Positions 835-23,924 of a stretch of DNA of 23,924 nucleotides are shown one piece after another. Positions within the stretch are counted from its first letter, which is position 1; the number at the start of each line of letters is the position of its first letter. Below the pieces are notes generated by a model. The model made no database searches. It had not been told where the DNA came from and worked only from the letters and a program-made list of their open reading frames with translations. The stretch comes from a virus: the IMG/VR virus record IMGVR_UViG_3300029319_000473, positions 1,082 to 25,005 of that record, one strand, 5' to 3'. The translations under genes and the position numbers were made by a program.

Positions 835-1059
835 TCATTTATCCATAATATTTCGAAGAAGAGTTTTTATCTCATTCATATCCTCTTTTAAAGAATCCAA
901 ATCACTACGCATATTATCAAATTTCTTTTTCTCCTCGTGTTTTTTTCGAGAAAGTTCCATAAATTTATCAAATTCATCTTTATTTCTATTCACAATGGCA
1001 TTTGAGTCTACGTCTCTGACTAGAGACTTGTCAGATTCAACTTTCAAATATTTTTCCAT
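835..1059 (-). CDS. Small charged coiled-coil protein (74 aa), function unknown
   Basis: The product is 74 residues and highly charged. The first 25 residues (MEKYLKVESDKSLVRDVDSN) are followed by a Lys/Glu-rich helix from about residue 28 to the end. Spaced hydrophobic residues in the last 30 (FDNMRSDLDSLKEDMNEIKT and on to LLRNIMDK) fit a heptad coiled coil. It has no signal peptide or membrane segment. The ATG overlaps the TAA of the 2518-residue structural gene by one base (TAATG), which suggests translational coupling. I recall similar short coiled-coil genes after the DUF4815 gene in T4-like cyanophages. A structural or assembly-chaperone role is plausible but unproven. The gene ends in TGA immediately before a late promoter. 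Confidence 0.75.
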   Translation of the reverse strand: MEKYLKVESDKSLVRDVDSNAIVNRNKDEFDKFMELSRKKHEEKKKFDNMRSDLDSLKEDMNEIKTLLRNIMDK

Positions 1060-7000: not shown

Positions 7001-8615
7001 CAGTAATACCATTAATTATTAATGGTTCATTAAGTTGGAACTCTCCTGTAACATCGGTAAGAACAATCAGAGAGGTATTTGTTATCGTAAATGCTGAATA
7101 TCCAACTGCCCCACTATTTTTTCCTTCTACACGGGTATAAGCACCATAATCAACATCAATATTTTTCGAGAGTGTAAGACGTGTATAAAGTTGGACATCA
7201 TAAATTGATAAATTATAAGTTGTAACTGCTACTCCTGTAGCACTTGTTTGTTTAAAATCATAAACTTTTGCAGTTCCAACTCTCTCATCTGCATCAAATG
7301 CTCCAGGAGCAGCAGCTTTATCAACAGTCAATCGATTACGTAATAATTGAACTTGTCCACTGATAGTATTATTTTGAAAACCTACGTCTGGTGATCCAAA
7401 AACATTCGATATTGAAACTGATTTTCCCATTCTAATTGGAACACTTTGATTCTCAACTAATTTTGTCGTTCTTGGTTTTAAAATATCTATTGATGATGTA
7501 CCAATATTTTCAACCTCATAACCTCTTACAAAAGCCTTTCCTGATGAAATTTGTAAACTAATTAAATTATCAGACGGTATATTACCATTTTGAGTTTGTT
7601 GTGTATCAAAATATACCCCTTTATTACCAATTCTATTATTTAAAGATTCTTTAGCATTTACAGTAAATGGTCTTACATAATAATCGCCAGATTCGTCATA
7701 AGTTCTTCTAGCTAATTCATCAGCAAAAATATTATATTCAGTTTTAGTAACAATTTCTTTTATTTCACCATTTTCAACTCTCAATAATTCGACAAAATCA
7801 TCATCATTACTATCTGATAACAGTTTTTTGTGTAAACTAATTGATAATTTGAATCTATCTGCACCTGGTGCTGACTCATTAGAAAATCCTTTTGCATTAT
7901 CATACAAATCAGAATTTACAGAGGATGCTCTTACTGTTTCCTCATTTATTAAAAATCCGACTCTATAACTTGGTTCGTTAGTATATTGATCCAATATCAC
8001 AGTAGATGCTACGTTTTTTACAAAAAATCCACGAATAAAGTAAACACCTTCACTTACAGAAAAGGCACAACCAGTTGATGTTGCATCAGATACAATACAT
8101 CTTGCAAATTGACTATTTGCTGTTATACTTGTATTCAAATAATTAAAAGATGAAAGAGTTATTAAATTTTCACCATCTAAAAATACTTTAGTCTCTCCAT
8201 CTGTTCCAGATTTAGTGTACTTTACATATAAAGTATCAAACCCATCAATAGATTCTGCAGATGTTAGTCTATTAACTACTGTTGCTTCTACTCCTGAAGT
8301 TTCTCCTTGAATTTTTATTCTTGCGTCTGCTATAATTTTTGTATAGTTAAAAACAGGTATATTTAAAAAATTTGGATCTATCTTTACTGCGTTATATTCA
8401 TCATCATATGAAGTTCCGCCAGGAATTACCATCGCACCTTCTTTAAAGAAGTGTTGCCCAAATTTTTCTACTTGATTTTGAAGAATTGTCTGAAGAGTTG
8501 TTAATTCTCTAGCCTGAACTGGAAATCCTGGTTTAAATAGAACTTTTTGATAGTTTTTACTATCAACAAAATCATCAAAATATGGGGAAACGTTTAAATT
8601 GGTATTTTGTGGCAT
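1059..8615 (-). CDS. Giant DUF4815-type virion structural protein (2518 aa)
   Basis: The N-terminal part, from about residue 8 (SPYFDDF, KVLFKPGFPVQARELTTLQT, QVEKFGQHFFKEGAMVIPGG), is the DUF4815 signature of phage structural proteins. Further family-typical blocks follow: a helical segment SLESRIKNLENYTTLSLLE near 1147, FKSGFFVDNF near 1190, and VRSRNVEVFAKRLKPNTKFY at about 1440-1460. An Arg-rich tract (1704-1725) precedes DPLAQSF (1727-1733), a motif common in tail-fibre and baseplate-periphery proteins. The C-terminal third has a Gly-rich GSGYAPGD module (about 1980-2045) and an IDKEIIEYKG module (about 2130-2207), both also seen in the gp7-like protein. The start lies 4 nt after the gp8 stop. 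It is probably a peripheral baseplate or fibre-network protein expressed late. The family is clear; the exact position in the particle is inferred. Confidence 0.85.
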   Translation of the reverse strand: MPQNTNLNVSPYFDDFVDSKNYQKVLFKPGFPVQARELTTLQTILQNQVEKFGQHFFKEGAMVIPGGTSYDDEYNAVKIDPNFLNIPVFNYTKIIADARIKIQGETSGVEATVVNRLTSAESIDGFDTLYVKYTKSGTDGETKVFLDGENLITLSSFNYLNTSITANSQFARCIVSDATSTGCAFSVSEGVYFIRGFFVKNVASTVILDQYTNEPSYRVGFLINEETVRASSVNSDLYDNAKGFSNESAPGADRFKLSISLHKKLLSDSNDDDFVELLRVENGEIKEIVTKTEYNIFADELARRTYDESGDYYVRPFTVNAKESLNNRIGNKGVYFDTQQTQNGNIPSDNLISLQISSGKAFVRGYEVENIGTSSIDILKPRTTKLVENQSVPIRMGKSVSISNVFGSPDVGFQNNTISGQVQLLRNRLTVDKAAAPGAFDADERVGTAKVYDFKQTSATGVAVTTYNLSIYDVQLYTRLTLSKNIDVDYGAYTRVEGKNSGAVGYSAFTITNTSLIVLTDVTGEFQLNEPLIINGITEGNSVTAIEDNTFEDVKAVHSSGGLGSGSTTFAANTVLNSKKQIFQTGAEFEILPLSDSTSGFSTVRGSSVTDFRTLVKVGDIISYTGGANIGNTIPTFNRVKDIGIGGTSFLIENVADVSGTCNGGVAASSPTDIFVRVPTLNESDDPGFRVKLADEYISSINVLDSSYVMREQITKTFSNNSVIFNITDISTAGDTTNLFFEPFSADNYILEMFDSTPNSRVVEKLLPTMVSVDIGLKQVTISGLSGPATSRTAKLTVAVRRSKLVSKEKSLTRCSSLVIDRSESVGSGTTIDGLTTSTIYGTRVQDKELSLDVPEVTRILGIFEANDVVSDPPSLPLVTVNNQSSTFTNNVVVGEQFIGSLSGAVARVVIPQPTQLSFVYENENTFEIGETISLKTSGIIATVTGVAPGDRNILKNYDLDNGQRIEFCDYSRLIRKSDAEKPSRKLRVIFDHLSNNEVSGNVETVNSYNTLNYTNDIPFVFDSWASDYLDFRPRVGTYNRSSSTISPFVNASRDFSSSQSDSVISGKTVIVDYSYYQGRIDRLYLTKDGAFVMKDGTPSRTPKAPVPNEEGFQVATIKLPPYIRNAENEILIKRVPHKRYTMRDIGSLESRIKNLENYTTLSLLETDTKNLAVKDPNTGLDKFKSGFFVDNFRNHNSHNLTGESNFDIDIENSECRPRSTERNVALVFETTSTTASPESSDYKFASDFPDSNVTRGGAALTLNYSETPFIVQPNATRVENLNPFMVDVFVGSIELTPNSDFWIHEAPIPPQNVEIDNVYDAMSQLLGVEDRENGGMASSFWNSHETTWNGRDSATLIDESITGRQVLSSRSRTSTRRTGNAITGGNIRTTTTTTRDIRNTIEQTFRESGTQKEFGLELSSSETVVDLGTKVLGIDVLYTVRSRNVEVFAKRLKPNTKFYVFMENQDLTKYAVPKYLPITMTRGSFSVNEEVETVESAGSGIPNIRCRVANPNHKIGPYNDPNEIVTILPVANDSDPIAVPQTYSSTSQILNIDTADLALQNNPNHFGYVKKGQSIVNSSGTAEATIGDISLMSDSDGDLIFSLHIPDPTESGNPTFTTGSNTIKVTTSETNASILDPGSSSAEEEYFSSGYQTNTQEQTLSIKAPVIERVEIGSVDVSRTFTDTRTEDVTETTTNVQNQAIPRRRRNSSPARRRRRRRRRGGRRGDPLAQSFLVDEAVYESGIFITSGELFFKTKDDEIPVTVQIRTMRDGIPTQEVVPFGETKIKPEDINLSEDGSAVTTFKFETPVFLQSGHEYAIVLMAFFTEKYLAFINRMGESDLITQGLNTTQPVLGSLFKSQNNTTWSPSQYEDLKFTLNQAQFITNTPSSVLLYNSELPLGKIMKNNPVVAFSKRVNVKLGIATEMTLTPGDEIQQTVGGVVNTGRIFKTGGPIKTGTSKLTIVSNTGIGLTTGTFTGIGFTSLTGDGQGLEAQVVVAGNPPEVTAGNVTITTQGSGYAPGDLLLMNPVGATGSGVRAIVTSHVSIGGTDLIVLDEVKNDFVPTTNMVHFTQGGAQTTLINGEITSVTPDSIRDGYTLKFDHKNHGMHSNTNKLRIANFHPDGTPTTLTQKLDDDSTQITVTSGSSFETFEGKTVNASFPGYVLIDKEIIEYKGVSGNNLTSISRGDENGGIDSSLKANHAGGSLVFKYEFNGISLRKINKVSIDNQPYHNIDPREKTFDSYFVKVSTASTNPTFNTTKSGGGNGLQVSQNIPFEAIDPQITSITPTGTNISARIKTTSGTSLSGNEASFTDKGYENIALNKLNYLDDPRIIASNINEYNILGNQKSFALELTLTTDNVDVSPVIDLQNPNIIAISNLVDDKVDNFETDSRPKIPGFDPNSAIYETKMIDLEFISNSLLVQFDGHREAEGDIRVFYKLIRSDGDDSNATYIPFNTNGLPDKVVNPNTTRNGFSEYKYTAENTPQFNGFMLKVVMTSTNQAKPPRIKNFRGIALRSFEIE
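3441..3506 (-). repeat. AGA-codon tract encoding an Arg-rich segment
   Basis: Within the DUF4815-type gene, codons 1704-1725 encode four arginines, NSSPA, nine consecutive arginines, two glycines and two more arginines. The nine-Arg run at 3453-3479 is AGA five times, AGG once and AGA three times, a near-perfect trinucleotide repeat. The tract lies one residue before the conserved DPLAQSF motif. Such repeats are prone to slippage in whole codons, so length may vary between relatives. A function in binding polyanions such as LPS or nucleic acid is speculation. Confidence 0.9.
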
Positions 8616-8619
8616 CTTT

Positions 8620-10245
8620 TTAGAACTCTATTACGATTTTTATTTCTTCTTTTTGGGAAGTTGATCTTGTGATTGGTGCTCTATTATCAACATAAATGAT
8701 ATCACCAGAGTATTTTTTAATATCTGGATTTGCCATACCAGTAATAAATGATTGACTTAGAGCAACATTTTTTCCACTTGCAGTAGAAATTGAATCATCA
8801 TTAAAATTTTTATTAATAATAAGATCTCCTCCAGCTGCGTTGGCATTAATTATAGGAGCATTATCATCAGCAATAAAATCAAGTTGTTTATAAGAATAAG
8901 ATGCTAATGTTGAAAAACCAACTGGTTGATAATACTTTAAGATTCCAGTTTCTGGATTCCAAGAGGCAACATATGCAACTGCAGTGGATCCTACCCCAAC
9001 TGTTTGTTTTATTATGCTATTAGTAGCATACGTAACTTGAGATGTGGTAGATACTCCAGCTGCACCATCAGAAGTTAAAGCTAAAGCACCTAAACTTGTT
9101 GCAGTCGTACTATTTAGAAGTGTGTTTCCAGTAAAAGTTTGAGGATTTTTGATTATACCAACACGAGAAAAATCATTACCAATAACATAATCTGGTGCAT
9201 CATCAACATTATTATCGTATTTTGAATACAACATAACTCTAAATCCACCTAGTTCACGGTAAACATCTGCCCCATGACCACCTTTAGGTGGTATTACAAC
9301 TTCAAAATTTGGTTGATTTACAGTAGAAGCTGGAACTCCAAGTTCAACGTTGTTTCCATTCTCTCCAACGTACGTGCCAGTTATAAATCTAAGATTTGCA
9401 TATGTGTAATTAGATCCACCAATAACTGTTACAGAATCTACAGACCCCCCTTTAATTTTAACTGTTGCTGAACCACCAGATCCATCACCACTAATTGGAA
9501 CTTGTGAAACTGTTCCTGCATCTGTACTTCCAACACTAATACCAGTTCCAGCATCTTTAACAACTATAGTTTCAATTTTTCCATCTACAGCAGCATTTTT
9601 TATGTTTTCATTAGTTGCATCTCCCCATTTTTTAGGAAGAGGTATGTATTTTGATGTAACAAATTTAACAATATCAGAAGGAGAAACACTGAATAGATAT
9701 TTCCATAAATAACCATCATCTCCTGCAGGTTGAGGTGCAGTGTTTGTATGAGTTGGTTCAAATAATGATTTGGATCCATCTGGATTAAGTGGATCAGAAC
9801 CGTTGTTTATACAAACATAAACTTTAAACTCTGATGTGACGACATAGTAGTTTGATCCATACAAAGTTGTAGATTTTGTTTGAGGTGTTAAATTTTGATC
9901 AGTATAACTATTTTTCCCATGATAATTATTCCTGTACATATCGTATATTGAGTTAGATTGCCAATTTATTCTTGGAATAACTCTTCGAACATCATCTGAA
10001 GTTACTTTTTTCAAAAATAACATGCTATCATGATAAAAATTTTCTTGAGAAAAAGAATCTATAGGATCTGGAATAGGAGCTCCCCAATTTTCAAATCCAT
10101 AATTTTTTACTTGCACATTTTTTGGATTAGGGTGTCCTAAAAAGGTGTAATAGTTATTATTTCCAGTCGTACCAATACCTACAAAACTGTCTATAAAAGT
10201 TTCTGCGTTTAATATACGATATTGGTCAGTGATTATTGCGGGCAT
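8620..10245 (-). CDS. 8: Baseplate wedge protein gp8
   Basis: The N-terminal 215 residues match the T4 gp8 family as I know it: MPAIITDQYRILNAETFIDS, a YYTFLG strand, IPDPIDSF, then DSMLFLKKVTSDDVRRVIPR, WQSNSIYDMYR, LYGSNYYVVTSEFKVYVC, GDDGYLWKYLFSVSPSDIVK and YIPLP. In T4, gp8 is a dimeric wedge component bound by gp7 and gp10. At 541 residues this is longer than T4 gp8 (334). Part of the extra length is a Gly-rich module at about 225-291 (VVKDAGTG, then GSNYTYANL) of the type repeated in the neighbouring gp7-like protein. A VGIGTTG motif occurs near residue 22. A perfect late-promoter octamer lies 21 nt upstream of the ATG, so gp8 can probably be transcribed separately from gp7. The Shine-Dalgarno sequence is weak. 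Confidence 0.9.
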   Translation of the reverse strand: MPAIITDQYRILNAETFIDSFVGIGTTGNNNYYTFLGHPNPKNVQVKNYGFENWGAPIPDPIDSFSQENFYHDSMLFLKKVTSDDVRRVIPRINWQSNSIYDMYRNNYHGKNSYTDQNLTPQTKSTTLYGSNYYVVTSEFKVYVCINNGSDPLNPDGSKSLFEPTHTNTAPQPAGDDGYLWKYLFSVSPSDIVKFVTSKYIPLPKKWGDATNENIKNAAVDGKIETIVVKDAGTGISVGSTDAGTVSQVPISGDGSGGSATVKIKGGSVDSVTVIGGSNYTYANLRFITGTYVGENGNNVELGVPASTVNQPNFEVVIPPKGGHGADVYRELGGFRVMLYSKYDNNVDDAPDYVIGNDFSRVGIIKNPQTFTGNTLLNSTTATSLGALALTSDGAAGVSTTSQVTYATNSIIKQTVGVGSTAVAYVASWNPETGILKYYQPVGFSTLASYSYKQLDFIADDNAPIINANAAGGDLIINKNFNDDSISTASGKNVALSQSFITGMANPDIKKYSGDIIYVDNRAPITRSTSQKEEIKIVIEF

Positions 10246-10280: not shown

Positions 10281-13200
10281 TTAATAAGAAGTTTTCATTG
10301 GTAGAGTTCTTATAACTTGAGCAGATGTTTCAATTCCAATTATTCCGTTTTGATTGTGGAAAGTAAATGATTTTGAGTCGGAACTTCTGGTTACATTAAT
10401 TGAACCCCAACTATATGTACCATATTTAGATTGACTTATTAATGTTGTTGTATCTATACCTGAAATAGAATCGACATTTGCAAATACTCTTATCATGGAT
10501 GATCCAACAGAAACATAATCTTCAGCATAATAAACATTATCTAGGAAGGTGTTACCAACACTAACAGTTTCTGGCCCAGAGGATGTGGTTCTAATTCCAG
10601 TAACTCCATCACCAATACTTGTATTTTGAATTACAAAATAATCACCAGTGGTAATACCAGACTTAGATACTTTATTTAATTCACTACCAGCTGGCGTTCC
10701 ATCTTCATCATATATGTTGGGATGTGGTTTAATTTCAAAAAATAAGGCAGGTTTAGTTGTGTTTATACCAACAGCACTTGTTCCAATTCCAACTATGATT
10801 CCATAGTCACCGTTGTATGAAACTTTTTCTATTGTTTCAACAGAAGCTATTGTTCCCATACCAACGATGTTTATATCATTCTGAGTTTGTCCCAAATTAT
10901 CAACTTGTTTGAATAACCAAGAGTCTTTAACGTAAATTTTACCATCATTTGTTGAAATTGATTTAATTATTCCAGTTGTTGGTAATATTTGTGGTTCTAA
11001 GTAATTTCTTTCTTTAGATATACTCACTCCATCTATAATTAAATCCTGTAATTGTTTCTTCCACACAGTTGGACGAGTAAAATCGGCATCAGTGGATATA
11101 CCAACACCAGAGTAAGTTGTTGTTTCTACAGTATCAGATGCAATTAACTCATAAACAACTCTTTGATCTTGTCTTGCTACTTTACCTAAAGATGTGACGG
11201 ACTCACTTCTTATTCCATCTGGTGATATACTACTATTCACAACAGAATCATTAAAATACTGTAATGTTAATTTATCTCCTGGTTTTATTGTTTCATCAAC
11301 ATCGACTTCAACAAAATCATCAGTAGAAGCAGTATAGAAATACATTTTAAACTTACTACCTGATTTAGGTGCCTCTCTAAATGTAATTCTAGTTCCACCA
11401 TCAAATGAGTAATCATTACCTGGTTTTTGTAAAATATCATTGAGGAATATTAAAAGATTATTTTGTAAAATTATTCCTGAACCTTCTTGAGCAACTATAC
11501 TATAGTATTCTTTAGTCGTAACTGTTCTTGTTATTAAGAATGATTTTCTAAATCCGTTAAATTGTGCACTAAAATCATCTAATTCTAATAATTGCCCAAA
11601 ACACCATCCTGCAAATTTATCTTGAAATTTGTTTTTTACAGTTATGTTAAAAGCACTAGTTCCTATTCCAACTTGGAATGGTAAAGTAGTTAATTCCAAA
11701 TTATCACCTATTTCATAACCTATTCCACGATCTGCCATATCAAATGATATAATACTACCACCTGTGCCTACAACTACATCAATAGTAGCCCCAGATCCGT
11801 TTCCACCAGACAAAGGAATATTTTTGTATGGACTTGGAGGTGCAACAGTGACAAAATTTATTCCTGTAGATATTCCTGTAGAAGTGTAACCACTACCTGG
11901 ATTCGCAATTGTAACAGCTGTAACTATACCAGCAGTTACGAACGCAGAAATCGCTGCACCAACTCCAGTTGTAGAACTTACAGAGACTAAAGGGTTTGAT
12001 AGATAACCATTACCACCACTCGCTATTCCTACAGACTGAATTGTTCCACTTGCAGAAACAACTGCGGTAAGTATTGCTTTTTTAGGAACTTGATAACCAC
12101 TTCCAATACCAACATCAAATTCATTAATTATTCCACCTCTAGGTAAATCTTTATTTGCTGGTGTTCCTGTAAAATCAATTGTTTGTCCAGTTCCAACAAT
12201 TTGATAATCTGATTTATTGATATCACCTACATCTCCATAAAAAGGTTTTTGGAATATATTATTAATTAATATAGCACCAAAATTAGTATTAATACCAGTT
12301 AACTGAACACCATTGGTTGTTAAATTGAATTTATCTGTACTTCCATCAAATCTATCAGATATGTCATCTATAATTTTGTTAGAATTATAATTTAATCTGT
12401 AATATGCTCTACCTGAAAATGTGGAGTGGGTAGTTATACCAACAATTCCTGTTGGCCCATATGGTGCTTCAGTGAAGTAAAGTCTTCCTTCATTAATTCT
12501 GTAATCACCTTTGATTATTGTTACTGCTGCTCCCACTGTATGTGCTGCAGCAACAGTTCCCATTTGACCTCTAAGAACACTAAGAGTAGTCGTCCCAACA
12601 CCAACACCTGATACCTTAAATATCTCCTCTTCTATTCTAAACAGAGATTTACCAGAAATTTCTGAAGTGTCATTTAAAAATACAGTGGTAGTTGAAATTC
12701 CAATATCAGTCGATAAACCAACAGAAATTACGGTTGTTATTCCTATGGGACTTTGAATAACATTATCAATACTAATTAAAGTTCTAATTGTGGCTTTTTC
12801 TGATGGAATTGAAAGAGAATTAGTGCTTCCTAGTCCTACTACGTTAGTAAATGATGCTGCAATTCCAGCAGATGCAAAAGTAGCAGAGATTGCAACTTTG
12901 ATATTATCTGCATCTTCTCTAATTACAAAAAGGGTTGAAGGTAATAAATTTGTTGCAGCTACACCAGCGTTAACATCTGATGTGTTTGCAATTCCAATAC
13001 TCCCATTTAATGCTTTATATACTAATTCCTCACCAGTATTAAAATTATGTTTTGGTAAATTTATTTTATATGTTTCGGTTGACACTCCTATTGATGGATC
13101 AAATTCTCTATGAAATAATGAATTACCATCTGCAAAAACATTAAAACTAGTTGTTCCAATGACACCCCCACCAGTGGTAGTAACTATTCCAGTAAATTGA

Positions 13201-16200
13201 GAACTTATATCATCAATTAAGAGTACTTTATTTGTTCTAGATTCATTGTAATCAGTTATAATTTTTGATTTAAATATGACTAATTTCGATAATTCTGAAT
13301 CATTAGTATCTTCACTAACCAGATCATAGTTATATTTTTCATGAACAGATGCCTCTTGATCAACATCTACTTCGAGCCCAAGTTCAGAATCTGCAGATAG
13401 ACTTTGTTGTGCTGTGGATCCGATCCCTAAATTACAGAAATTCTTAAATCCAGCAACATGATCTAAACTATTAACTGCATCTTTCCAAGTATTAAATGGA
13501 ACTGCACCTTTAATTGAATATGAAAATCTTTGATAATAATCATTATCATGAAGTCTTTGAACATCTAAGTTTAATTTTCCAGTATCTGTTTTCCAACTAT
13601 TACTAATATTTGCTAAACTATCAACATTTAAATCAAAATCAAATTTAAACTGAGTGGTTACAGTTCCTTTGTTATTAGTAACTGAACCAACAATCTTATC
13701 GTTTTCTGTAAAATCACCGTTAACACTGAATACCTTTAAAGTCTCTGAGATTGGATTCCAACCATTTTTAGCAACTATTCCTGAAATATTTTTACCATCC
13801 ACTGTTACAACTTCATCATCCTGAAATTGAGTTTCTTTAAATATTGGTTTAAATGAAACGAGATCACTCTTCTTTATGACTCTACCAAAATTATTATCCT
13901 GTTGATAAGTTCCTCCAGTTGTTCCAAGACCAACTAATGAATAACTAACAGATTCTTGGCCACCTGTGGTAACAATTCCAGTAACTCTAAAGTAATGATA
14001 ATTATAAGCACTGGAGTTATATGTATCAACACCCTCTACAGTTTTGATATTTTCAACAAATATTTCATCATTTACTTCAAATGGAAAACTTCCTCCTGAG
14101 TTGTAAAAACCACTATCTGAACCAGATTCTGGGTTTGGTGCTCTTAAACCAAGAGTTACTGTTTTATTGCCATCGGTAGAAGCATTAGTTACCACAACCC
14201 CATTAGAATTGACTATTGGTATAACTCTAACGTCATCTGATAATCCACTATCATTTGTTAAAATTGAAACACTGTCTATTGAAGTTCCGCTTAAAGTTGT
14301 TTGAGCAACTATACTCGGATTCCCAACAACTAAAACTTTTGGTGGACTAGTGTAATTTAATCCACCTGAAGTAATTCCTATACTATCTAAAGTTAATACA
14401 TTTTTTAATTTTAAAAGAACATTGCTGTCTGCTTTTGGTTTTAAAGTGCGATCTGGAGAAAACTCTAATCCTTGATCAATCACTTTAGCACTTTCTATTT
14501 TCCCAATTTCATCTGATTCTACAGTTAAAACAGAGTTCGTACCATCTGTAGTGCCTATTGATGTAATTAGGGGTAATTGTTTAAGATTAAGTCCTCTATT
14601 TAAAATATTTACTGAATATATCCCTCCCTTTTCATTAAGGGCTGATGTTGAATAGAACATCGATGAAATTCCAGCAGATGTATATGAATTAGTTTCAGCT
14701 ATTCCAGTTAAATTAAATTTAAATGTATTAGTATTGATTCCACTAACTTTGTATTGATTATTAAATTTAGATTCCGATAATATTATTTGGGAATGATTTG
14801 GAACTCTTTCATCAACAGGCAAAAAATGTGTTTTTATTGAATTGTTGTTTTTACCTTGAACTCTGTAGAAAAATTTTGGTGCTAACGAATCACTGACAGT
14901 TATTACAGTTTTTTCGTTAGTCTTTGTAATTAAGTCACTATTATATTTTGATTGAAAATTTTTATCTTCATAAAATTCTATATTATAGTTAGATAAACTT
15001 GAATCAGAAGTAACTAACTCTACAGTATTATTTTTGAATAAAGTTAATTTTGGATTTATCTTTGATATTTCGTGATTTTGTCCTCCAGTTTCTCCTATTC
15101 CAATGTAATTATATGGAAAAACCGATAAATCATAAGAATTTTCTGCTAATCTTATGGTGTTAGGAGAATCTTTTATCACATGGTAAACACCATCATTAAC
15201 TAACGGGCTAGCAGGAGTTAATGAATTATAAACAATTAAATCTCCAGTCTCAAAGTCATGGTTGTTTATTGTAATTGTTGATAATGTCGTTCCTATACCA
15301 ATTGCTGAATCGGTAAATGATAATGGATTTATGACTAATTTTCTAATACTTTCATTGTATTTTAAATTAAAAGTTTGAATTTTATTTGATTTTATGTGTA
15401 ATTTAAAATTATCATTTAAACTTAGTCCATGCTGCTGTCCTGACGTTGTGGCAGTGGCAACAGTAACAGTTCCATTTATTTTTCTTAAAGATCCAGATAT
15501 ATTATTTGTAATTAACTCTATTTTAATATCATCTTGAGATATTGATCCTGTATTGGTTAAAACTTCTCTAAAAAATACATTTTCAGAAGTTGAACTAATA
15601 CCTAAAGTTCCTATTCCTACCTTTTCAGTCGCTAATCCAATAAATTCACCACTAAGTTTAGTGCAGAAAAGTTTATCAAAGGATGACAAATCAAATGAAT
15701 TATTTAATAATGGATCTTTCGTTGCATTTATGGTTGACCCTAAAGAAACTAATCTAACTTCATCTCCACTATTAAATTCGTGATTAGGTAAATATATTGC
15801 TTTTGGTGGAATTGATTTAAAAATTGTTCCTATACCTGGATTAGTTCCTACTCCTGCAACAGCTACATTTGATATAGAAGTTCCTATTCCAACTGATTTC
15901 AATCCTTCAAAATATCTAATTTTAGGAAATTCGACATTTTTATTTTCTAGTTTCTTGGATATTTTATATGAAAATTGTGTTTCTAGTTTCTTAACTGCAG
16001 TTCCTGAATTATGAGTGACAAATGACGTTTCATTATATCCCCGTCTAACTCTATATCTATTATTAATATCATCATAATTAAGAATTAAAAAGTGTTCTGA
16101 TCCAATCTCAATAACATCATTTATTTTAAATTTTCTAGTTTTAGTAGGGGTAATTAAACTTATAAAAGTTGTAATCCCAGTTGCAGAAGACGCACCAATA

Positions 16201-19200
16201 GATTCTGATAAATTAGAAACTAAAGTTGTTATACCAATAGTTCTTATTCCCTCTATATTTTTGTAAGAAATTGATGATATTCCAGATATTTCAACAATAT
16301 CACCATCTGATAATCCATGTGGTAGGGTGGTAAAACCAATTACCTCCTTATCAATTACTGAAAATTCTATATTATCAATATTTTGTTCCGTAGTTCCTAT
16401 TGATACTACTGGTTGTCCAATAACCTCTTTGACATTGGCTGATATTGAATTGTTGTTAAAATTTATTAAATCATTAACTTTATAATTGATTCCAGATTGA
16501 TCAACTGTAATTTTTGTAATTTTTGAACTTTCAATTCCATCTACTTTGACTACCGCTTGTGAATCTAATGAGTCTTGTAAGAGAGGATATCTTCTAAATC
16601 GATCATTTAATCCTAAGTGAGTAACATTTCTTTTGTATTCTCCAGTATTAAGAATCTCATCCGTCTGTCTTTTACGGTTATCATAATTAAAAGCATCTGT
16701 AGCATTACGATGCATAAATGTAATATATGGAAAAGATGGATTTTTAGTAACACTGTCTATGGTTGAGAAATAAGCATAAGTTCCATTTGGGAAATCGGAA
16801 TTTGTTAAAAATTTACCATTATATTCATCTAAATCTTTATTTTCTTTATAAACATAATCTTGAATAAAGTATCCACTTGTAAGAGGTGGTCTCAAGTTTA
16901 CATCACTAATAATATCAATTTCATAACTAGATTCCATAAATGTGGTTATTCCTGCGGTGTTTATACCAACTGGGCCATAAATTGGATTTCCATCATAAGC
17001 CCAACCAACAATTTTTGAGTGGTTGGTGGTCAATTCATTAAAAGAACCATCCAAATTATCACCAACTAAATCACGAAACTTTTTAACTGGGTAAAAGGAA
17101 CAAATTTTATTATTGTAAGTTGCTAAATTTGAATTTACTTGAATAAATGCTGATGTAAATTCGTTGTCAGTTAAAAATTTACTATATCTTTCTACTGAGT
17201 TTATTTTCCACTCATGAATTTTAGTGCTAATAATTTCTCCTGATCCAGATGGTATAACTCTTATTGCTGTATTAATCGGATCATATCCATCACCCTGTGA
17301 AATCACATTTACACCAGTTATTTTTCCATCAGAAATAACTGCCTTTAGTTCCGCAAATGATCCAACTGTTCCTGCTGTTCCACCAAGTCCCACAACCTCA
17401 AGTTTTGGTGGAGTGGTATATTCTGAACCAGCATTTCCAATAGTTGCACCAACAATTTTACCGTTAAAAATTATAGGAGATATAAATCCATCTCTTCCTC
17501 TTAATAAAGATATTTTTGGTGTGCGTTCATAATTTACAATATTTGTAACTCCATATCCAACTCCTCCATCTTTTATAAAAATATTTTTTAATCCACCTAT
17601 TACTTCAACCTCTACTGATGCCTTATAATAGTCAGGTATTACAGATGTATTTCCTACAGAAACCTTTCCGCTAACTTCAATTTGAATATCAGGATATTTA
17701 AATGTATGCGTACCTACACCCACACTATTTAATTTTTCGTATATTTTTCTATTGTAATTTGTGTTTGAAATACTAGTAGCTGTTCCTGCATCACTTAATT
17801 TAAATTTATCGCTATCAATTACTGTAACTTTATATGATGTTTCTGTGGATAACCCTGATATGACAGTTCCAGTGCAAATATAATTTACGACATCACCGTC
17901 ATTAAAACTATGATTTTTGGCATAAATGTAATTATTAAAAGTGTTTATACCAACAAATTTTTTAAATAAATCTTTTTTATCATTTGGTGGCCACTGTTCA
18001 GATGTTATTTCAACACGATGTTTACCATAAACTGATCCAGATTCTTTTACCGATATTCTATCAATTATATTTCTTATTTTTTTAGATTTAAAAGTATGTG
18101 TTTTATTACCAAAAGAAAATAGATCTAATAAATTTTCTTTACTTAATGCATTATCTTTTGTTACAGCTAAACTAAATGAATTATTATCAATTTTTGCGAT
18201 AAAGTAAGATGTTCCTGAAGACAATCTATCAGTTGCAAATCCTACATTTATACCCGTGTTGATACCTACTGGAACTCCAGTGGCAATATAAGTTACTTCC
18301 TCACCATCAGAGAATCTATGATCACCTACAAATGTATCATCTGTTAAATTTAAATCAAAATCTGTGTATGATCTACTATAAACGAATCCTCTTAGTTTTG
18401 CTTCACAAACTGCTCCAGAACCATTTCCACCTGTTATTGTTACAGAAGGAACTTCAGAAAAATCAAATCCTGGTTCATTTACAACGACCTCTGATACTTT
18501 ACCCGAATAGTTAGCAATTACATCGCAACCTGTACCAATACTATCTGTAATCGATAATGTTGGTGGATTAATTACATTAAAATTTTGACCAGGATTAGTA
18601 ACTTCAATTTTATCAATCATTCCATAAAATATTGATTCATTTGAAATTGGTGAATGATATTCAACTCCATTTAAAGCAATCCCTACCGCACCCGTAATAC
18701 TTGATTTTGTTTTTTTAACCTTTGGATTTCGATATATTCTCTTAAAATTATTCTGATTACTTAACTTTTTACCATCATATAAAGTTGCTGGAGTTATAGA
18801 ATGATTTCCTGTATCTATATTATTCCATTTAATCGGTTCGAAAGAGTTATTATATAAATTTGCATAATTTAAGGCTATTTTTAAATTATTATCGTCAATA
18901 ACTTTTAAGTAATAATAACCACTAGACCCAGTAATTCCAGAGTTTGGAGAAATGTTTAAATAAATTTTCTCTCCGTTTATAAATTTATGGTTATTAATAT
19001 TAATTGTATTTGAATTTGTACTAATCCCACTTGATGAAAAATTTTGTGATCTATTATTCGTATCATTACTAGCAAAAGATGGATATCCAGAACAAGCAAC
19101 ATACGTATTATTGTCTATGTCTGAAAAAGAATTTTGGATATTTGAAAGAAGAGATGGAATACCAAAATTTGAATGTACATAACTAAATTTCTTTTTGATA

Positions 19201-20810
19201 ACGTAGTCACCACCTGCTAATTTACTGTATTCTGTACTATCCATTGGATTTCCATTTTTGCTAATTCCCCCATCAAGCAAAACTTCTTTAGAATCAATTA
19301 TTTCAGAAACTATTGCATTTTCTATTTCTGTTACTCCAGACTCTTTAAATTTTACATCTACGTAATCTCCAATATTTAAAAAATGCTCAGTTTCAGTTAT
19401 AAAATTTGTTCCAGCAATAGATCCAGCTTCACGTCCTAAAACATCAATATATGATAAGTTATTATAAAACCAAGTATTAAATTTTTTATCATTTGGATCA
19501 TATTTTTCACCTAAATGTTTAACTCCAATTAAATCATCAAAATCAAAATACTTAGTAGAAGAGACATCATCTGAAACTCCAGAAATTGACCCGACAATTC
19601 TCATTGTGCATATTTTAGTTAAATCATTATTTTCATAACCATATACAAAATTTGTATCAATTATCGGATCAGATTCATATAATGTTTCACTAATTCCAGT
19701 ACATCCAAAAAATTGATTACTAGATTTAGATGTATATTCTACTAATGTTAAAATATTATCATTATTAGTGTAATAAAAATTTCCTGTTTGTCCAAATCCA
19801 ATTGTAGAGTCAACTGTTAAAATATCTGAGGTTATAGCAGTTGTTGCGACTTTTGTTTTTGTTGATATTTTAAATTTATCAATTATAGTTCCTTTTGAGA
19901 AAGATATTTGATAGTATTTTTTATTTCCTAGAAACTTAGTGTTTACATTTGATATTGCACCACTGGCTGTGGGATTGGTAAATGAATCTTGAAATATTTT
20001 AACACCGACTAAATTTAAGGGATCACCAGAAATAACTTCAACTACAATATCATCAGAAATATCATACTCAGACTCCGATGCCATAAGTGTTTGTTCAAAA
20101 GGTTTAATTACATCAACTAACTCTCCATATAATACTTGAAAAAGAATTTTTAATGAACCATCTGTTCCTTTTGAATTATAAAAATCTCTAGCTCTTGATA
20201 AAACAGTTTCTATATTTAAACCGTATGATAAATTTCTTCCTTCTAAACCTGGTAAAAAATTATATCTATATTTTTTGTAAAATTCAGTTACAAAAACAAA
20301 ACTTAAATTAACTACTAATGAACTTGCAGAGTGCACACTAGCATTTGTATCACTAAACGTTAAAAATTCTGGATTATCAATTGTGCTAATTTCAGATACT
20401 CCACTAAATCCACGAATACATCCTGTAAAAGATGTTGCAGTTTTTCCTTTATATGTGATAATTTCATTATCAATTTTTAGAAGTCCATAACTTTCTGGAA
20501 ATCCAGTGGTTTGATTTACATTTATCACATCATCAAATGCAAATATTTGTGATGTTAGAATTACTGGTGAAGATGGGGTTGTGGTTCCTGGTAATGGAAT
20601 TGTTTGTTCTTCAACTATTGATATATCTGCAACATTTTTAATATTTTTAAGAGATGAAATATGATCAGATAAGTAAGTTGATCCATACTCACGTTCCTCA
20701 GATTTATAATATTGACTTAAAAATTCTTTGAAAAGAGGATTATCGGCTTGTATGAAATCTGGTATCTGACTACCAAGAATATTTGAAATTTTAACTTTTT
20801 TATCTGACAT
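10281..20810 (-). CDS. 7: Giant gp7-like baseplate wedge protein (3509 aa)
   Basis: The N-terminal region (MSDKKVKISNILGSQIPDFI, NPLFKEFLSQYYKS) and FYNSKGTDGSLKILFQVLYG at about 206-226 match the gp7-type wedge proteins of T4-like marine phages. In T4, gp7 (1032 aa) is the elongated wedge core joined by gp10, gp8 and gp6; this one is over three times longer. Most of it is beta-rich repeats: 'H.F..GD.V' modules near 476, 607, 830, 966, 1497, 1676, 1793, 1847 and 2587; Gly-aromatic modules at about 737-807, 1085-1195, 2067-2205 and 2900-3037; and an 'IITYKG' module at 90-140 and 2700-2767. A YHYH-like domain lies at about 1245-1370. Near the C-terminus, ILQKPGNDYSFDGG and ITFREAPKSGSKF (about 3120-3165) resemble other cyanophage copies. 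The ATG follows the gp6 stop in the same frame, separated by one CAG codon. Family assignment is firm for the N-terminus. The symbol is by synteny and family name. Confidence 0.82.
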   Translation of the reverse strand: MSDKKVKISNILGSQIPDFIQADNPLFKEFLSQYYKSEEREYGSTYLSDHISSLKNIKNVADISIVEEQTIPLPGTTTPSSPVILTSQIFAFDDVINVNQTTGFPESYGLLKIDNEIITYKGKTATSFTGCIRGFSGVSEISTIDNPEFLTFSDTNASVHSASSLVVNLSFVFVTEFYKKYRYNFLPGLEGRNLSYGLNIETVLSRARDFYNSKGTDGSLKILFQVLYGELVDVIKPFEQTLMASESEYDISDDIVVEVISGDPLNLVGVKIFQDSFTNPTASGAISNVNTKFLGNKKYYQISFSKGTIIDKFKISTKTKVATTAITSDILTVDSTIGFGQTGNFYYTNNDNILTLVEYTSKSSNQFFGCTGISETLYESDPIIDTNFVYGYENNDLTKICTMRIVGSISGVSDDVSSTKYFDFDDLIGVKHLGEKYDPNDKKFNTWFYNNLSYIDVLGREAGSIAGTNFITETEHFLNIGDYVDVKFKESGVTEIENAIVSEIIDSKEVLLDGGISKNGNPMDSTEYSKLAGGDYVIKKKFSYVHSNFGIPSLLSNIQNSFSDIDNNTYVACSGYPSFASNDTNNRSQNFSSSGISTNSNTININNHKFINGEKIYLNISPNSGITGSSGYYYLKVIDDNNLKIALNYANLYNNSFEPIKWNNIDTGNHSITPATLYDGKKLSNQNNFKRIYRNPKVKKTKSSITGAVGIALNGVEYHSPISNESIFYGMIDKIEVTNPGQNFNVINPPTLSITDSIGTGCDVIANYSGKVSEVVVNEPGFDFSEVPSVTITGGNGSGAVCEAKLRGFVYSRSYTDFDLNLTDDTFVGDHRFSDGEEVTYIATGVPVGINTGINVGFATDRLSSGTSYFIAKIDNNSFSLAVTKDNALSKENLLDLFSFGNKTHTFKSKKIRNIIDRISVKESGSVYGKHRVEITSEQWPPNDKKDLFKKFVGINTFNNYIYAKNHSFNDGDVVNYICTGTVISGLSTETSYKVTVIDSDKFKLSDAGTATSISNTNYNRKIYEKLNSVGVGTHTFKYPDIQIEVSGKVSVGNTSVIPDYYKASVEVEVIGGLKNIFIKDGGVGYGVTNIVNYERTPKISLLRGRDGFISPIIFNGKIVGATIGNAGSEYTTPPKLEVVGLGGTAGTVGSFAELKAVISDGKITGVNVISQGDGYDPINTAIRVIPSGSGEIISTKIHEWKINSVERYSKFLTDNEFTSAFIQVNSNLATYNNKICSFYPVKKFRDLVGDNLDGSFNELTTNHSKIVGWAYDGNPIYGPVGINTAGITTFMESSYEIDIISDVNLRPPLTSGYFIQDYVYKENKDLDEYNGKFLTNSDFPNGTYAYFSTIDSVTKNPSFPYITFMHRNATDAFNYDNRKRQTDEILNTGEYKRNVTHLGLNDRFRRYPLLQDSLDSQAVVKVDGIESSKITKITVDQSGINYKVNDLINFNNNSISANVKEVIGQPVVSIGTTEQNIDNIEFSVIDKEVIGFTTLPHGLSDGDIVEISGISSISYKNIEGIRTIGITTLVSNLSESIGASSATGITTFISLITPTKTRKFKINDVIEIGSEHFLILNYDDINNRYRVRRGYNETSFVTHNSGTAVKKLETQFSYKISKKLENKNVEFPKIRYFEGLKSVGIGTSISNVAVAGVGTNPGIGTIFKSIPPKAIYLPNHEFNSGDEVRLVSLGSTINATKDPLLNNSFDLSSFDKLFCTKLSGEFIGLATEKVGIGTLGISSTSENVFFREVLTNTGSISQDDIKIELITNNISGSLRKINGTVTVATATTSGQQHGLSLNDNFKLHIKSNKIQTFNLKYNESIRKLVINPLSFTDSAIGIGTTLSTITINNHDFETGDLIVYNSLTPASPLVNDGVYHVIKDSPNTIRLAENSYDLSVFPYNYIGIGETGGQNHEISKINPKLTLFKNNTVELVTSDSSLSNYNIEFYEDKNFQSKYNSDLITKTNEKTVITVSDSLAPKFFYRVQGKNNNSIKTHFLPVDERVPNHSQIILSESKFNNQYKVSGINTNTFKFNLTGIAETNSYTSAGISSMFYSTSALNEKGGIYSVNILNRGLNLKQLPLITSIGTTDGTNSVLTVESDEIGKIESAKVIDQGLEFSPDRTLKPKADSNVLLKLKNVLTLDSIGITSGGLNYTSPPKVLVVGNPSIVAQTTLSGTSIDSVSILTNDSGLSDDVRVIPIVNSNGVVVTNASTDGNKTVTLGLRAPNPESGSDSGFYNSGGSFPFEVNDEIFVENIKTVEGVDTYNSSAYNYHYFRVTGIVTTGGQESVSYSLVGLGTTGGTYQQDNNFGRVIKKSDLVSFKPIFKETQFQDDEVVTVDGKNISGIVAKNGWNPISETLKVFSVNGDFTENDKIVGSVTNNKGTVTTQFKFDFDLNVDSLANISNSWKTDTGKLNLDVQRLHDNDYYQRFSYSIKGAVPFNTWKDAVNSLDHVAGFKNFCNLGIGSTAQQSLSADSELGLEVDVDQEASVHEKYNYDLVSEDTNDSELSKLVIFKSKIITDYNESRTNKVLLIDDISSQFTGIVTTTGGGVIGTTSFNVFADGNSLFHREFDPSIGVSTETYKINLPKHNFNTGEELVYKALNGSIGIANTSDVNAGVAATNLLPSTLFVIREDADNIKVAISATFASAGIAASFTNVVGLGSTNSLSIPSEKATIRTLISIDNVIQSPIGITTVISVGLSTDIGISTTTVFLNDTSEISGKSLFRIEEEIFKVSGVGVGTTTLSVLRGQMGTVAAAHTVGAAVTIIKGDYRINEGRLYFTEAPYGPTGIVGITTHSTFSGRAYYRLNYNSNKIIDDISDRFDGSTDKFNLTTNGVQLTGINTNFGAILINNIFQKPFYGDVGDINKSDYQIVGTGQTIDFTGTPANKDLPRGGIINEFDVGIGSGYQVPKKAILTAVVSASGTIQSVGIASGGNGYLSNPLVSVSSTTGVGAAISAFVTAGIVTAVTIANPGSGYTSTGISTGINFVTVAPPSPYKNIPLSGGNGSGATIDVVVGTGGSIISFDMADRGIGYEIGDNLELTTLPFQVGIGTSAFNITVKNKFQDKFAGWCFGQLLELDDFSAQFNGFRKSFLITRTVTTKEYYSIVAQEGSGIILQNNLLIFLNDILQKPGNDYSFDGGTRITFREAPKSGSKFKMYFYTASTDDFVEVDVDETIKPGDKLTLQYFNDSVVNSSISPDGIRSESVTSLGKVARQDQRVVYELIASDTVETTTYSGVGISTDADFTRPTVWKKQLQDLIIDGVSISKERNYLEPQILPTTGIIKSISTNDGKIYVKDSWLFKQVDNLGQTQNDINIVGMGTIASVETIEKVSYNGDYGIIVGIGTSAVGINTTKPALFFEIKPHPNIYDEDGTPAGSELNKVSKSGITTGDYFVIQNTSIGDGVTGIRTTSSGPETVSVGNTFLDNVYYAEDYVSVGSSMIRVFANVDSISGIDTTTLISQSKYGTYSWGSINVTRSSDSKSFTFHNQNGIIGIETSAQVIRTLPMKTSY
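16701..17078 (-). other. YHYH-like domain inside the gp7-like protein (about residues 1245-1370)
   Basis: The segment carries the ordered signature of YHYH-type domains: VGWAYDGNPIYGP (W1270 to P1280), LDEYNGKF (L1327 onward) and PNGTYAYFST (Y1345 to F1348), then FPYITF. In the family the second block is typically LDxCNG and the third YHYH. Here Cys is Tyr1330 and both His are replaced (Y-A-Y-F), while both Tyr are kept. The function of the domain is not known to me. Boundaries are approximate and judged by eye. Confidence 0.6.
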
Positions 20811-20813
20811 CTG

Positions 20814-22691
20814 TTATCTTGTATATTTTTTATTACTAATAAAACTAGATGGTGGTGAATAATTTGTTCCTGATACATTTGAACCAGAAACGAGAACATC
20901 CTCTAATAGATTTAGTTGACTATTTCCTGTAGTATCTAGCACAATATAAAGGTTCTCTTTTGCAACAATATCATTCGATTCTGGTGTTGCTTCAATTTCA
21001 ACTCTGTTTGATAAACTCGTAGATACAATATTCAATGGAAATAAATCGACTTCTCCTTTTACATAATCAACTACACCAGCATTATTGTTAATATAAGTTA
21101 TAATACCATTATTCATTGTAAAGAATCTAACGACTCCAGTAAGTTGATCACTATTTGGTAAATCTGTTAAATAGACATCTCCATCAACATCTTCAATTCT
21201 AAATGCAGAAGAACGAATATTAAAACCCTCTAGATCAGCATGGAACTTATTTCCATAACAAACTTCATATGTTGCTAATTGATTATAAAGAGGAATCATA
21301 TTTCTTCTAATTACAAGAGTTGTAATGTTTGAAGTTATTCCAGTATCAACTTTATCAATCTGAGATAATAGTTTACTATATTTTAATCTTCCCCCAAATG
21401 AGTTAATATCAGCTGATTTTGCATAAGTTTCAATCGCAGATATTATTCTTGATTGTAAATTTAACTGATCAGAGATAAATCCTGAATCATAAGAAACAGT
21501 TGTTTTAAATTCAACATATAGATACATTAAATCAAGAAATTCCTGTTTAATTCCAGCCACTGTGTACTTTTTCAAATCATTTTTAATTGAATCTTTGGCA
21601 GCAGCAGTTAAAAATTCACCATTTTTAGGTTTGACAGTAATAAAAACTTTTCCAAATTGAGGTGGGTCAAGTTCTTCACCTCCATAAGCACTTACCGAGT
21701 CAATATTTGGATATAAAAATGGTATTAGACTTGTATAATCATTTGGTGTAACTGCCCTGTACTGTGAGGCATAGACCCTCGGAGCAAGGTATTTTATATT
21801 GTCTATAGATTCTATTGAATCTCCGTTTTCAGACGATTGTATGGTCGTTAGAAGCGATATACCATCTACGATAGTTGCTCCTGTATTACTTGTTAATGTC
21901 CCAGAAAAATTAAAATTAGCAGCACCATTTCCATTTTCTCCATTTGTTACAATATAACTAACTGTTATTATAGCTCCGTTACCTGGTTTTTTACCTAAAA
22001 CTCCGTCTCCAAATAAAATTTGATACTTTTCATCTTCAATTTCTTGGACTAAAAACAATCTAGACTCAGAATTAACATCAAAAATGTTTGCGTAAGCAGT
22101 ATATGGTAAAGATGTTCCATTTTCTTCTATTTGAACACGAATTGAGGAAGTATCAATATTAGAATTTGGTAAAATAAACCTCTGATTTGTTTGAGAACTA
22201 ATAACTTCAAAGGATTTTGTTAAATAAGTACCCTCATATATCTCAATATTGTTAAAACTTGCAAGTTTATTGCTATTTGGAGTAACTGTGATGTCTTCGG
22301 GTATAGAAAAAATAAAATTTCCACCCTGAACATTACCTAAAGCAACTAAACCTGCATTTAATTTAACACTAAGTGCGTTTGATGACGTTACATCTACATT
22401 AAAACTAACTCTTGCAACTGCTGATTTCTTTGATCTTGGTACATATCCTATATTTCTTGCAAGTGATACAACATTTTCACGTAGAGTTGCACTATCAATG
22501 AAAGATTCATTGACAGCCATGTTTGTATTGTACGAAGTTATATAAGAGTTATATGCTAACGTATCAATCAGAATTGAAAAATTTGAACCTTCAAAGTCAA
22601 AATCAGTAAAATTTGAGTTTGATCTCAAATAATCTTTGATCTGAGCTCTTAAAGTATTAAAATCGAGGTTAGTAAACTGTGTAAATGACAT
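20814..22691 (-). CDS. 6: Baseplate wedge protein gp6
   Basis: The 625-residue product is close to T4 gp6 (660). The N-terminus is characteristic of the family: LDFNTLRAQIKDYLRSNSNF, FDFEGSNFSILIDTLAYNSY, NMAVNESFIDSATLRENVVS, LARNIGYVPRSKKSAVA. A gp6/gpJ-like core follows at about 270-420, with YRAVTPNDYTSLI, KVFITVKPKNGEFL and then YVEFKTTVSYDSG. In T4, gp6 dimers link neighbouring wedges into the continuous inner ring around the hub and contact gp25, gp53 and gp7. The ATG shares one base with the gp25 stop (TAATG), and an in-frame TAG lies three codons upstream, so the start is fixed and translation is probably coupled to gp25. The gene ends one codon before the gp7-like ATG. Nothing appears truncated. 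Confidence 0.93.
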   Translation of the reverse strand: MSFTQFTNLDFNTLRAQIKDYLRSNSNFTDFDFEGSNFSILIDTLAYNSYITSYNTNMAVNESFIDSATLRENVVSLARNIGYVPRSKKSAVARVSFNVDVTSSNALSVKLNAGLVALGNVQGGNFIFSIPEDITVTPNSNKLASFNNIEIYEGTYLTKSFEVISSQTNQRFILPNSNIDTSSIRVQIEENGTSLPYTAYANIFDVNSESRLFLVQEIEDEKYQILFGDGVLGKKPGNGAIITVSYIVTNGENGNGAANFNFSGTLTSNTGATIVDGISLLTTIQSSENGDSIESIDNIKYLAPRVYASQYRAVTPNDYTSLIPFLYPNIDSVSAYGGEELDPPQFGKVFITVKPKNGEFLTAAAKDSIKNDLKKYTVAGIKQEFLDLMYLYVEFKTTVSYDSGFISDQLNLQSRIISAIETYAKSADINSFGGRLKYSKLLSQIDKVDTGITSNITTLVIRRNMIPLYNQLATYEVCYGNKFHADLEGFNIRSSAFRIEDVDGDVYLTDLPNSDQLTGVVRFFTMNNGIITYINNNAGVVDYVKGEVDLFPLNIVSTSLSNRVEIEATPESNDIVAKENLYIVLDTTGNSQLNLLEDVLVSGSNVSGTNYSPPSSFISNKKYTR

Positions 22692-23092
22692 TATATCCTA
22701 GTCGGTTGAAGTAAAAATTCGATATTTTGTGTCGGAAATGGCAAACCTGTAATTTCATATTCAATTCTTATCTGTAATTCATATGAATCAACTAGAGAAT
22801 CGATTATGACATGACGTAATGTAATCCTTGGTTCATAATTTTTAAGTAAAACCGTGATTTCTCTCTCTAGAAATGATGAAATGTCATCTAAATTCGTCTC
22901 AAACAACGAATCTTCAATTGATGTACCCAATAATTCGTTAAAAAACCTCTCATTAAGACGTGTTCTACACAAATTAACCACTGATTTCTTAATTGCATCT
23001 TCATTTCGAAGCACAGTCACATCGTTTGTGACAGGATGCTTCGTAAACGACAAGCTAATGTCCTTAAATGCACGAGAAATTTTAACTACCAT
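22691..23092 (-). CDS. 25: Baseplate wedge protein gp25 (GPW/gp25 family)
   Basis: At 133 residues the product equals the family length (T4 gp25 has 132). The order of features fits gp25: a short N-terminal strand (ISRAFKDISLSF), DVTVLRNEDAIKKSVVNLCR, TRLNERFFNELLGTSIEDSL, a helix around DDISSFLEREITVLL, the conserved NYEPRI segment (about 87-92), and beta strands ending IEFLLQPTRI. gp25 sits at the tube-sheath-baseplate junction, where it binds gp6 and gp53 and offers the handshake strands that start sheath polymerisation. An in-frame TGA directly precedes the ATG, so no earlier start is possible. An AGGA lies about 17 nt upstream, too far for a good Shine-Dalgarno. The stop overlaps the gp6 start by one base. 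Confidence 0.93.
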   Translation of the reverse strand: MVVKISRAFKDISLSFTKHPVTNDVTVLRNEDAIKKSVVNLCRTRLNERFFNELLGTSIEDSLFETNLDDISSFLEREITVLLKNYEPRITLRHVIIDSLVDSYELQIRIEYEITGLPFPTQNIEFLLQPTRI

Positions 23093-23299: not shown

Positions 23300-23308
23300 T
23301 TATTTATC
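23300..23308 (-). promoter_or_regulatory. Candidate late promoter, GATAAATAA
   Basis: The minus strand reads GATAAATAA, seven of eight bases of the late-promoter octamer, overlapping the TAA of the upstream conserved gene. Initiation about 6 nt downstream would give a leader of some 13 nt that still contains the GGAG of the 43-residue gene. The match is imperfect. Confidence 0.4.
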
Positions 23309-23924
23309 CTAATTCTGGATTTTCCTTTCGTTCTTTTGCTGTTTTCCAAAAATAATTCTCTTCTGAACCTAATCCATCACGATCATGACCGTTTTCTACC
23401 TGATAATACACGGTTGATACCTTAAAATCGGGATTCTTAGGTGTCTCAGGAGTAATACTGTTATCATAAATCCTCATTCTGTTGTTTGGATAGAGACAAA
23501 ACTGTCCATTATCCAATTCTAAGAGATTATGACTCTTATGTTCAGCTGGTTGTTCACTTGTTGAGTAGTCAATTGCGTCTACATCTTGATGATAATTGTC
23601 TAGAGTGCAAATATAAGTGCCTGTTTGCGTTCCATAGTCTCTTGTAAGCACTTCATAGTGCATTGAACCGATAAACTGCTTCTGTACTGCTACAACTCCG
23701 TAGTCCATGCAATTCCAAAACTGAAGATTATGTAAGGTCATGTCTGGTTTCGGTGTCTCAGGGTCGGTTGTGAACGCAGAGATTGGCAATTTATCAAACA
23801 TTGCAGCATAGTCTGGTAGATAAGTCTCGAAGTAGAAGGCACGACCAGGTATACTCTTGGCAGCAACCCATACTCCTTTCACAAATTCACCATGACCACT
23901 CTTGTGGTCGGTTAGATATTCTTT
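23304..23924 (-). CDS. Conserved T4-like marine phage protein of unknown function (5' end cut by window)
   Basis: The frame is open to the window edge and reads KEYLTDHKSGHGEFV before the GTG at 23882, so the gene is partial and that GTG is not the likely start; at least 206 codons are visible. Conserved-looking blocks are VKGVWVAAKSIPGRAFYFET, YLPDYAAMFDKLPISAF, LHNLQFWNCMDYGVVAVQKQ, a TYICTLDNYHQDVDAIDYST segment, LLELDNGQFCLYPNNRMRIY and PDFKVSTVYYQVENG. I recall closely similar proteins in many T4-like cyanophages, always without a known function. The many Trp, Tyr, Phe and Cys residues suggest a globular protein, unlike the beta-repeat proteins downstream. No signal peptide or membrane segment is visible. 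Its place next to gp25 and gp6 suggests late expression; a structural role is possible but not shown. Confidence 0.8.
   Translation of the reverse strand, partial: KEYLTDHKSGHGEFVKGVWVAAKSIPGRAFYFETYLPDYAAMFDKLPISAFTTDPETPKPDMTLHNLQFWNCMDYGVVAVQKQFIGSMHYEVLTRDYGTQTGTYICTLDNYHQDVDAIDYSTSEQPAEHKSHNLLELDNGQFCLYPNNRMRIYDNSITPETPKNPDFKVSTVYYQVENGHDRDGLGSEENYFWKTAKERKENPELG

Follow-up and report, generated by a model that had tools for sequence, protein, structure and literature searches.

Proteins with a YHYH domain (PF14240) are encoded by bacteria such as Limnohabitans, Pseudoalteromonas and Deinococcus, and the presence of the domain in cyanophage baseplates is already known. A 2020 paper mentioned it among the structural-operon genes of marine myophages (PMC7029224). 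A 2021 paper described YHYH fused to concanavalin-like lectins and predicted that the domain is a Zn-dependent hydrolase of the tail, with three His and an Asp as ligands, citing the phage protein AOO14285.1 (PMC7824862). Among cyanophages the domain occurs in gp7, the baseplate wedge initiator of the Kyanoviridae (S-CAM9, P-HM2, S-ShM2 and S-RIM14, whose gp7 is AOO14285.1), and in a stand-alone YHYH protein encoded next to it (AOO14286.1, ACG-2014d gp072, S-ShM2). Here we describe the YHYH domain of a giant gp7-like baseplate protein encoded in a 23,924-nucleotide stretch of viral DNA, positions 1,082 to 25,005 of IMG/VR record IMGVR_UViG_3300029319_000473, referred to below as the window. 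Profile comparisons indicate that this domain is split, being interrupted between its LNGV and metal motifs. New here are the split, the misplacement of the namesake motif in an earlier sequence-only reading of this DNA, and the conflict with that hydrolase prediction; no report of a split YHYH domain in gp7 was found in the literature searched, the scope of which left out most subscription journals.

The bacterial proteins share with the window gp7 the C-half motifs DGxPIY, LDxxNG and PxGxYxY, the N-half LNGV and, in the C half, the succession of strands and helices. Unlike gp7, they retain both D..NAHxQPxGxYHYH and the LDECNG Cys, and they lack any large insert. The Kyanoviridae gp7 proteins occupy the same position after gp25 and gp6 and resemble the window protein in having a split domain that has lost the metal motif; in the window lineage the insert is longer, a further insert lies in the N piece, and ICSF stands where the others are YAHL-like. 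The stand-alone protein is likewise phage-encoded, adjoins gp7 and shares TYAYF and PIYGPxGY with it; its domain, unlike that of gp7, is continuous and keeps DACGGH....G.YHYH intact, and the C-terminal part that comes after it contains a GxSNGG motif. In the stand-alone proteins inspected (loci L071, L072 and L261:18622-20343) the metal motif is intact, Pfam names only the YHYH part, and the GxSNGG-containing part looks alpha/beta-hydrolase-like by eye.

The sequence-only reading had reported three YHYH signatures in order within the gp7-like protein, and all three occur exactly as described in the 3509-aa open reading frame (ORF): GWAYDGNPIYGP at residues 1269-1280, LDEYNGK at 1327-1333 and GTYAYF from 1343. 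Its domain assignment also held, since residues 1262-1352 (window 16755-17027, minus strand) match PF14240 at 61.5 bits against a gathering cut-off of 25 bits (E 1.4e-16), a match that is well beyond chance and was recovered again in the source record. These residues cover positions 90-183 of the 193 in the profile; the namesake YHYH falls before position 90, outside the matched part, and the window match begins downstream of the true motif. In cellular proteins the namesake stretch, D-x-x-N-A-H-x-Q-P-x-G-x-Y-H-Y-H, lies in the N-terminal half and is invariant (89/89 sequences), a figure biased upward because YHYH was part of one of the two patterns used for retrieval, although counts for the second motif are unaffected. 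We therefore rejected GTYAYF as the namesake motif. It corresponds to a second, similar-looking cellular motif, Y-H-Y-[Y/V/F], which has its first His in 67 of 89 sequences and a second in only two, so the supposed loss of both histidines at YAYF does not stand. The Cys to Tyr change at LDxCNG, in contrast, is real: Cys is kept in 85 of 89 cellular sequences, the window protein has Tyr, and no Cys occurs there in 128 scored phage gp7 copies. An internal duplication linking D..NAH..YHYH with LDECNGR..YHY is conceivable, but it would span 18 columns only and self-comparison gave no off-diagonal match.

The earlier interpretation was incomplete in that it missed the large insertion splitting the domain. 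When hhalign was slid along the full length of the window gp7 with a cellular profile as template, only residues 639-720 and 1188-1410 rose above background, slices overlapping neither piece giving E 0.0083 or worse. The former align to template positions 59-141 (E 0.0011, improving to 7e-4 when the slice was tuned; residues about 675-724 are colinear with this stretch at E 7e-4 to 1.1e-3) and the latter to positions 151-309 (best E about 1e-24). The domain thus does possess its N-terminal half, displaced some 470 residues upstream of the C piece. With a profile that combined one phage protein and three bacterial YHYH proteins encoded on plasmids, the upstream piece was recognised in many gp7 proteins, and its equivalent in three other gp7 lineages reached E 3.4e-8 (P-HM2-like), 2e-6 and 9e-5; in these the N piece always ends at template 140-144 and the C piece starts at 177-210. 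It is because the same order of pieces and the same template gap recur in the window and the three other lineages that we place the interruption between LNGV and the metal motif. AOO14285.1 is split alike (N piece 1049-1119, C piece 1420-1537), and a Foldseek search with a cellular model matched A0A482IHF7 across a gap (TMq 0.66 over 452 columns). The first strand, TYVACSGYPSF, has no significant match on its own in the window sequence and was placed by alignment to 'YVYIAS[ST]G[IL]P' of cyanophage gp7 proteins, just ahead of their N piece. Were the domain truncated instead, gp7 having captured only the C half and the upstream LNGV-like stretch being a chance resemblance, the limited Pfam match and the weak N piece of the window lineage would be expected. 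However, the N piece is colinear and has the same profile end point in four gp7 lineages, its best E value being 3.4e-8 against the background of 0.0083; after profile scans of these lineages simple truncation was rejected, and we consider it very unlikely.

At the namesake place the window protein has I-C-S-F. In the gp7 model, strand 1234-1238 and helix 1243-1248 are the counterpart of the cellular YHY strand and the helix that follows it, and the ungapped homolog series YHYHGMP / YAHLSNP / CSFYPPK puts I-C-S-F at the same position. Residues 1224-1239 of the window gp7 contain neither His nor Asp, YHYH is absent from the whole 3509-aa protein, and it occurs in none of the 132 IMG/VR copies of phage gp7 in which motifs were counted; their second motif is YAYF in 96, YCYF in 20 and YAYH in four. 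By these alignments, the predicted metal ligands kept by cellular relatives are lost in gp7. The earlier proposal that putative metal ligands had been lost was therefore right for the namesake place and wrong for the YAYF place it named, and both this loss and that of the Cys are general among the phage copies.

These counts bear directly on the published view of YHYH domains as active, tail-associated, metal-dependent hydrolases that help to breach the cell envelope (PMC7824862). The protein cited for it, AOO14285.1, is of the same gp7 type as the window protein, yet it has no YHYH in 6198 residues and YAHL at the motif place, while the intact motif (DACGGHPEQNGRYHYH) is kept by the adjoining gene product AOO14286.1, the intact stretch of which has relatives in 72 phage records. 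The three His and one Asp behind the prediction are likewise lacking in the window gp7, and we regard hydrolase activity of gp7 as very unlikely.

The sequence-only reading had also presented the domain as one described mostly outside phages. This was not borne out, given the two papers cited above, the 132 IMG/VR gp7 copies and a tblastn search of GenBank that returned about 460 phage records, nearly all Synechococcus, Prochlorococcus or cyanophage by name. Furthermore, the PF14240 cut-off was exceeded in 12/12 cyanophage genomes tested, and scans of IMG/VR found the domain at 57 loci in one case and at least 80 in another. Among 51 gp7 sequences the core motifs (GWAxDGxPIY, LDxxNG, YPxGxYxYF and FPY) are kept, and nowhere in the 821-residue segment is conservation stronger; invariant columns are concentrated at the C piece. 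In a tree of the C piece a 100/99 branch parts cellular from phage sequences, the stand-alone phage proteins lying nearest the cells; as the tree is unrooted, covers only 121 columns and contains one long outlier, we claim neither origin nor direction.

Because conservation is strongest in the core motifs even though the predicted ligands are gone, we favour a structural module: the gp7 YHYH domain is probably complete but discontinuous, with its predicted metal site lost. The loss of metal-binding residues kept in cellular relatives likewise makes a structural role, and not an enzymatic one, the probable one. In place of the loop ahead of the cellular metal motif there would be a beta-rich arm, which differs in length among lineages and spans about 470 residues in the window protein. 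The ligand residues are exchanged (YHYH to ICSF here, YAHL in other lineages), with the core motifs retained. Since the arm takes the place of this loop, the YHYH core may act as the base from which it projects. We infer that the arm points outward and that the module serves wedge assembly or surface contact without hydrolysis.

Several points weigh against a structural module of this kind. The N piece is weak when taken alone in the window lineage (E 7e-4, the best background being 0.0083), and several Foldseek matches to gp7 models have a large root-mean-square deviation (rmsd). The packing of the N and C pieces as one domain in the virion is presumed, some other gp7 site could bind metal, and sequence searches of a PDB copy with the window domain and cellular YHYH queries found no solved YHYH structure. 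The domain might otherwise be a receptor- or carbohydrate-binding module, in which the conserved DGxPIY, LDxxNG and YPxG cluster would contact the cell surface by binding an ion or a glycan there; losing the metal motif would make no difference to such a module. This cluster is polar and conserved in both cells and gp7, insert 1 (see below) resembles the beta-barrel region of phage endosialidases, and the lectin fusions point the same way (PMC7824862). However, such binding is putative, and the gp7 YHYH core varies little among lineages, unlike what would be expected of most receptor binders. T4 gp7, moreover, is a core protein of the wedge and not a fibre, and we judge a binding module, although the main rival, to be unlikely. 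The structural or adhesive role suggested earlier was a better bet than an enzyme, with its structural half the probable one and its adhesive half doubtful.

The AlphaFold model of gp7 residues 555-1375 (predicted local distance difference test, pLDDT, 89.2; predicted template modelling score, pTM, 0.82) and that of a Limnohabitans YHYH protein (pLDDT 93.9, pTM 0.91) have the same order of strands and helices in the C half, and the gp7 model is consistent with a split domain. In Foldseek searches the gp7 model matched YHYH-annotated phage proteins, and the cellular model found gp7-type proteins, including E3SJZ4 of S-ShM2 (E 9.8e-11). Comparison of the cellular model with PDB folds gave a best Z of 2.9 and nothing usable among the chains compared. 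Giant viruses, too, have predicted YHYH proteins (BFVD A0A5B8IDC5 and A0A5J6VJS1; Mimiviridae, Megaviridae), and in a baseplate protein of ACG-2014d and S-ShM2 (L088, L089; L094:4768-8232; phrog_708) the YHYH domain is interrupted by a stretch that appears cupredoxin-like by eye.

Two inserts interrupt the window domain. Insert 1, which is absent from other gp7 lineages, resembles the endosialidases of phi92 (VIA-align Z 6.9) and K1F (Z 6.1, 28% identity) over model residues 31-123. Insert 2 stands directly ahead of the metal-motif place and is nearly all strand (DSSP), with GY-type repeats and FCCH-like domains; hhalign template positions leap across it from about 141 to about 151-210, and other gp7 lineages have a shorter counterpart. 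Within it, residues 809-911 align with E1 enzymes at Z 7.1-8.1 (about 74 residues aligned, rmsd about 2.3), which may reflect a common arrangement only. The likeness to E1 FCCH domains and endosialidase barrels concerns the inserts only (residues 585-677 and 809-911), at Z 6-8, a range where unrelated folds occur. A weak Pfam E1_FCCH match further along gp7 (residues 1497-1525, window 16236-16322, minus strand, E 0.0035, below cut-off) suggests that FCCH-like modules may recur through the protein.

The 3509-aa ORF matches phrog_2885, 'baseplate wedge subunit', at 2271.6 bits, and the surrounding order gp25-gp6-gp7-gp8 is that of cyanophages; together with cyanophage annotation, the family profile and gp25-gp6-gp7 order place it among cyanophage gp7 baseplate wedge proteins (Table 1). 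Because a neighbouring purM-like fragment shares 86% identity with the annotated purM of the Prochlorococcus phage P-SSM2, and G+C is 31.6%, the window probably derives from a cyanophage, the host itself being presumed. The PHROGs label 'ferredoxin' for this fragment (window 23304-23924, minus strand) looks wrong. A 2518-aa ORF (1059-8615), a giant structural protein, carries an arginine run (RRRRNSSPARRRRRRRRRGGRR) at window 3441-3506 (minus strand), directly before GDPLAQSF.

Table 1. Positions of the YHYH domain pieces, inserts and baseplate genes in the window
Feature	Window position	Strand	Basis
YHYH N piece, first strand TYVACSGYPSF, residues 569-579	19074..19106	-	Counterpart of cellular [S/A]NG[I/L]PDH
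YHYH N piece, second part, residues ~675-724, with GIALNGVEYHSP	18639..18788	-	Counterpart of cellular G.aLNGVkfD
Namesake YHYH place, I-C-S-F, residues 1236-1239	17094..17105	-	Model element order and homolog series
YHYH C piece, residues 1262-1363	16722..17027	-	PF14240 E 1.4e-16; hhalign E 4.8e-24 vs cellular profile
Second motif GTYAYF, residues 1343-1348	16767..16784	-	Counterpart of cellular G-[I/T]-Y-H-Y-[Y/V/F]
Insert 1, E1-FCCH / endosialidase-barrel-like, inside N piece, residues about 585-674	18789..19058	-	VIA-align
Insert 2, beta-rich arm, ~470 residues (725-1190)	17241..18638	-	hhalign template jump
FCCH-like domain inside insert 2, residues 809-911	18078..18386	-	VIA-align to E1 enzymes
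gp7-like giant baseplate wedge protein, 3509 aa, carries YHYH domain	10281..20810	-	phrog_2885 and gene order
gp6 baseplate wedge neighbour	20814..22691	-	phrog_219 641.7 bits; Gp6-like Pfam matches
gp25 baseplate wedge neighbour	22691..23092	-	PF04965 E 3.8e-10
gp8 baseplate wedge neighbour	8620..10245	-	PF09215 E 7.6e-14; phrog_438

Among the most abundant viruses of the sea are the T4-like cyanophages, whose giant baseplate proteins are mostly unexplained along their length. The split accounts for family searches having seen only half of the domain, and our results correct the published expectation that a baseplate YHYH domain is a cell-wall hydrolase; the better enzyme candidate is the neighbouring stand-alone YHYH protein. 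It is possible, and we suggest it tentatively, that a phage baseplate protein took up a putative metalloenzyme domain, whose active-site motif was then dismantled and whose pre-motif loop became the docking point of a large beta-rich arm, so that an enzyme fold would have become a structural base across most T4-like cyanophages, with an intact, enzyme-like version surviving as a separate neighbour in some.
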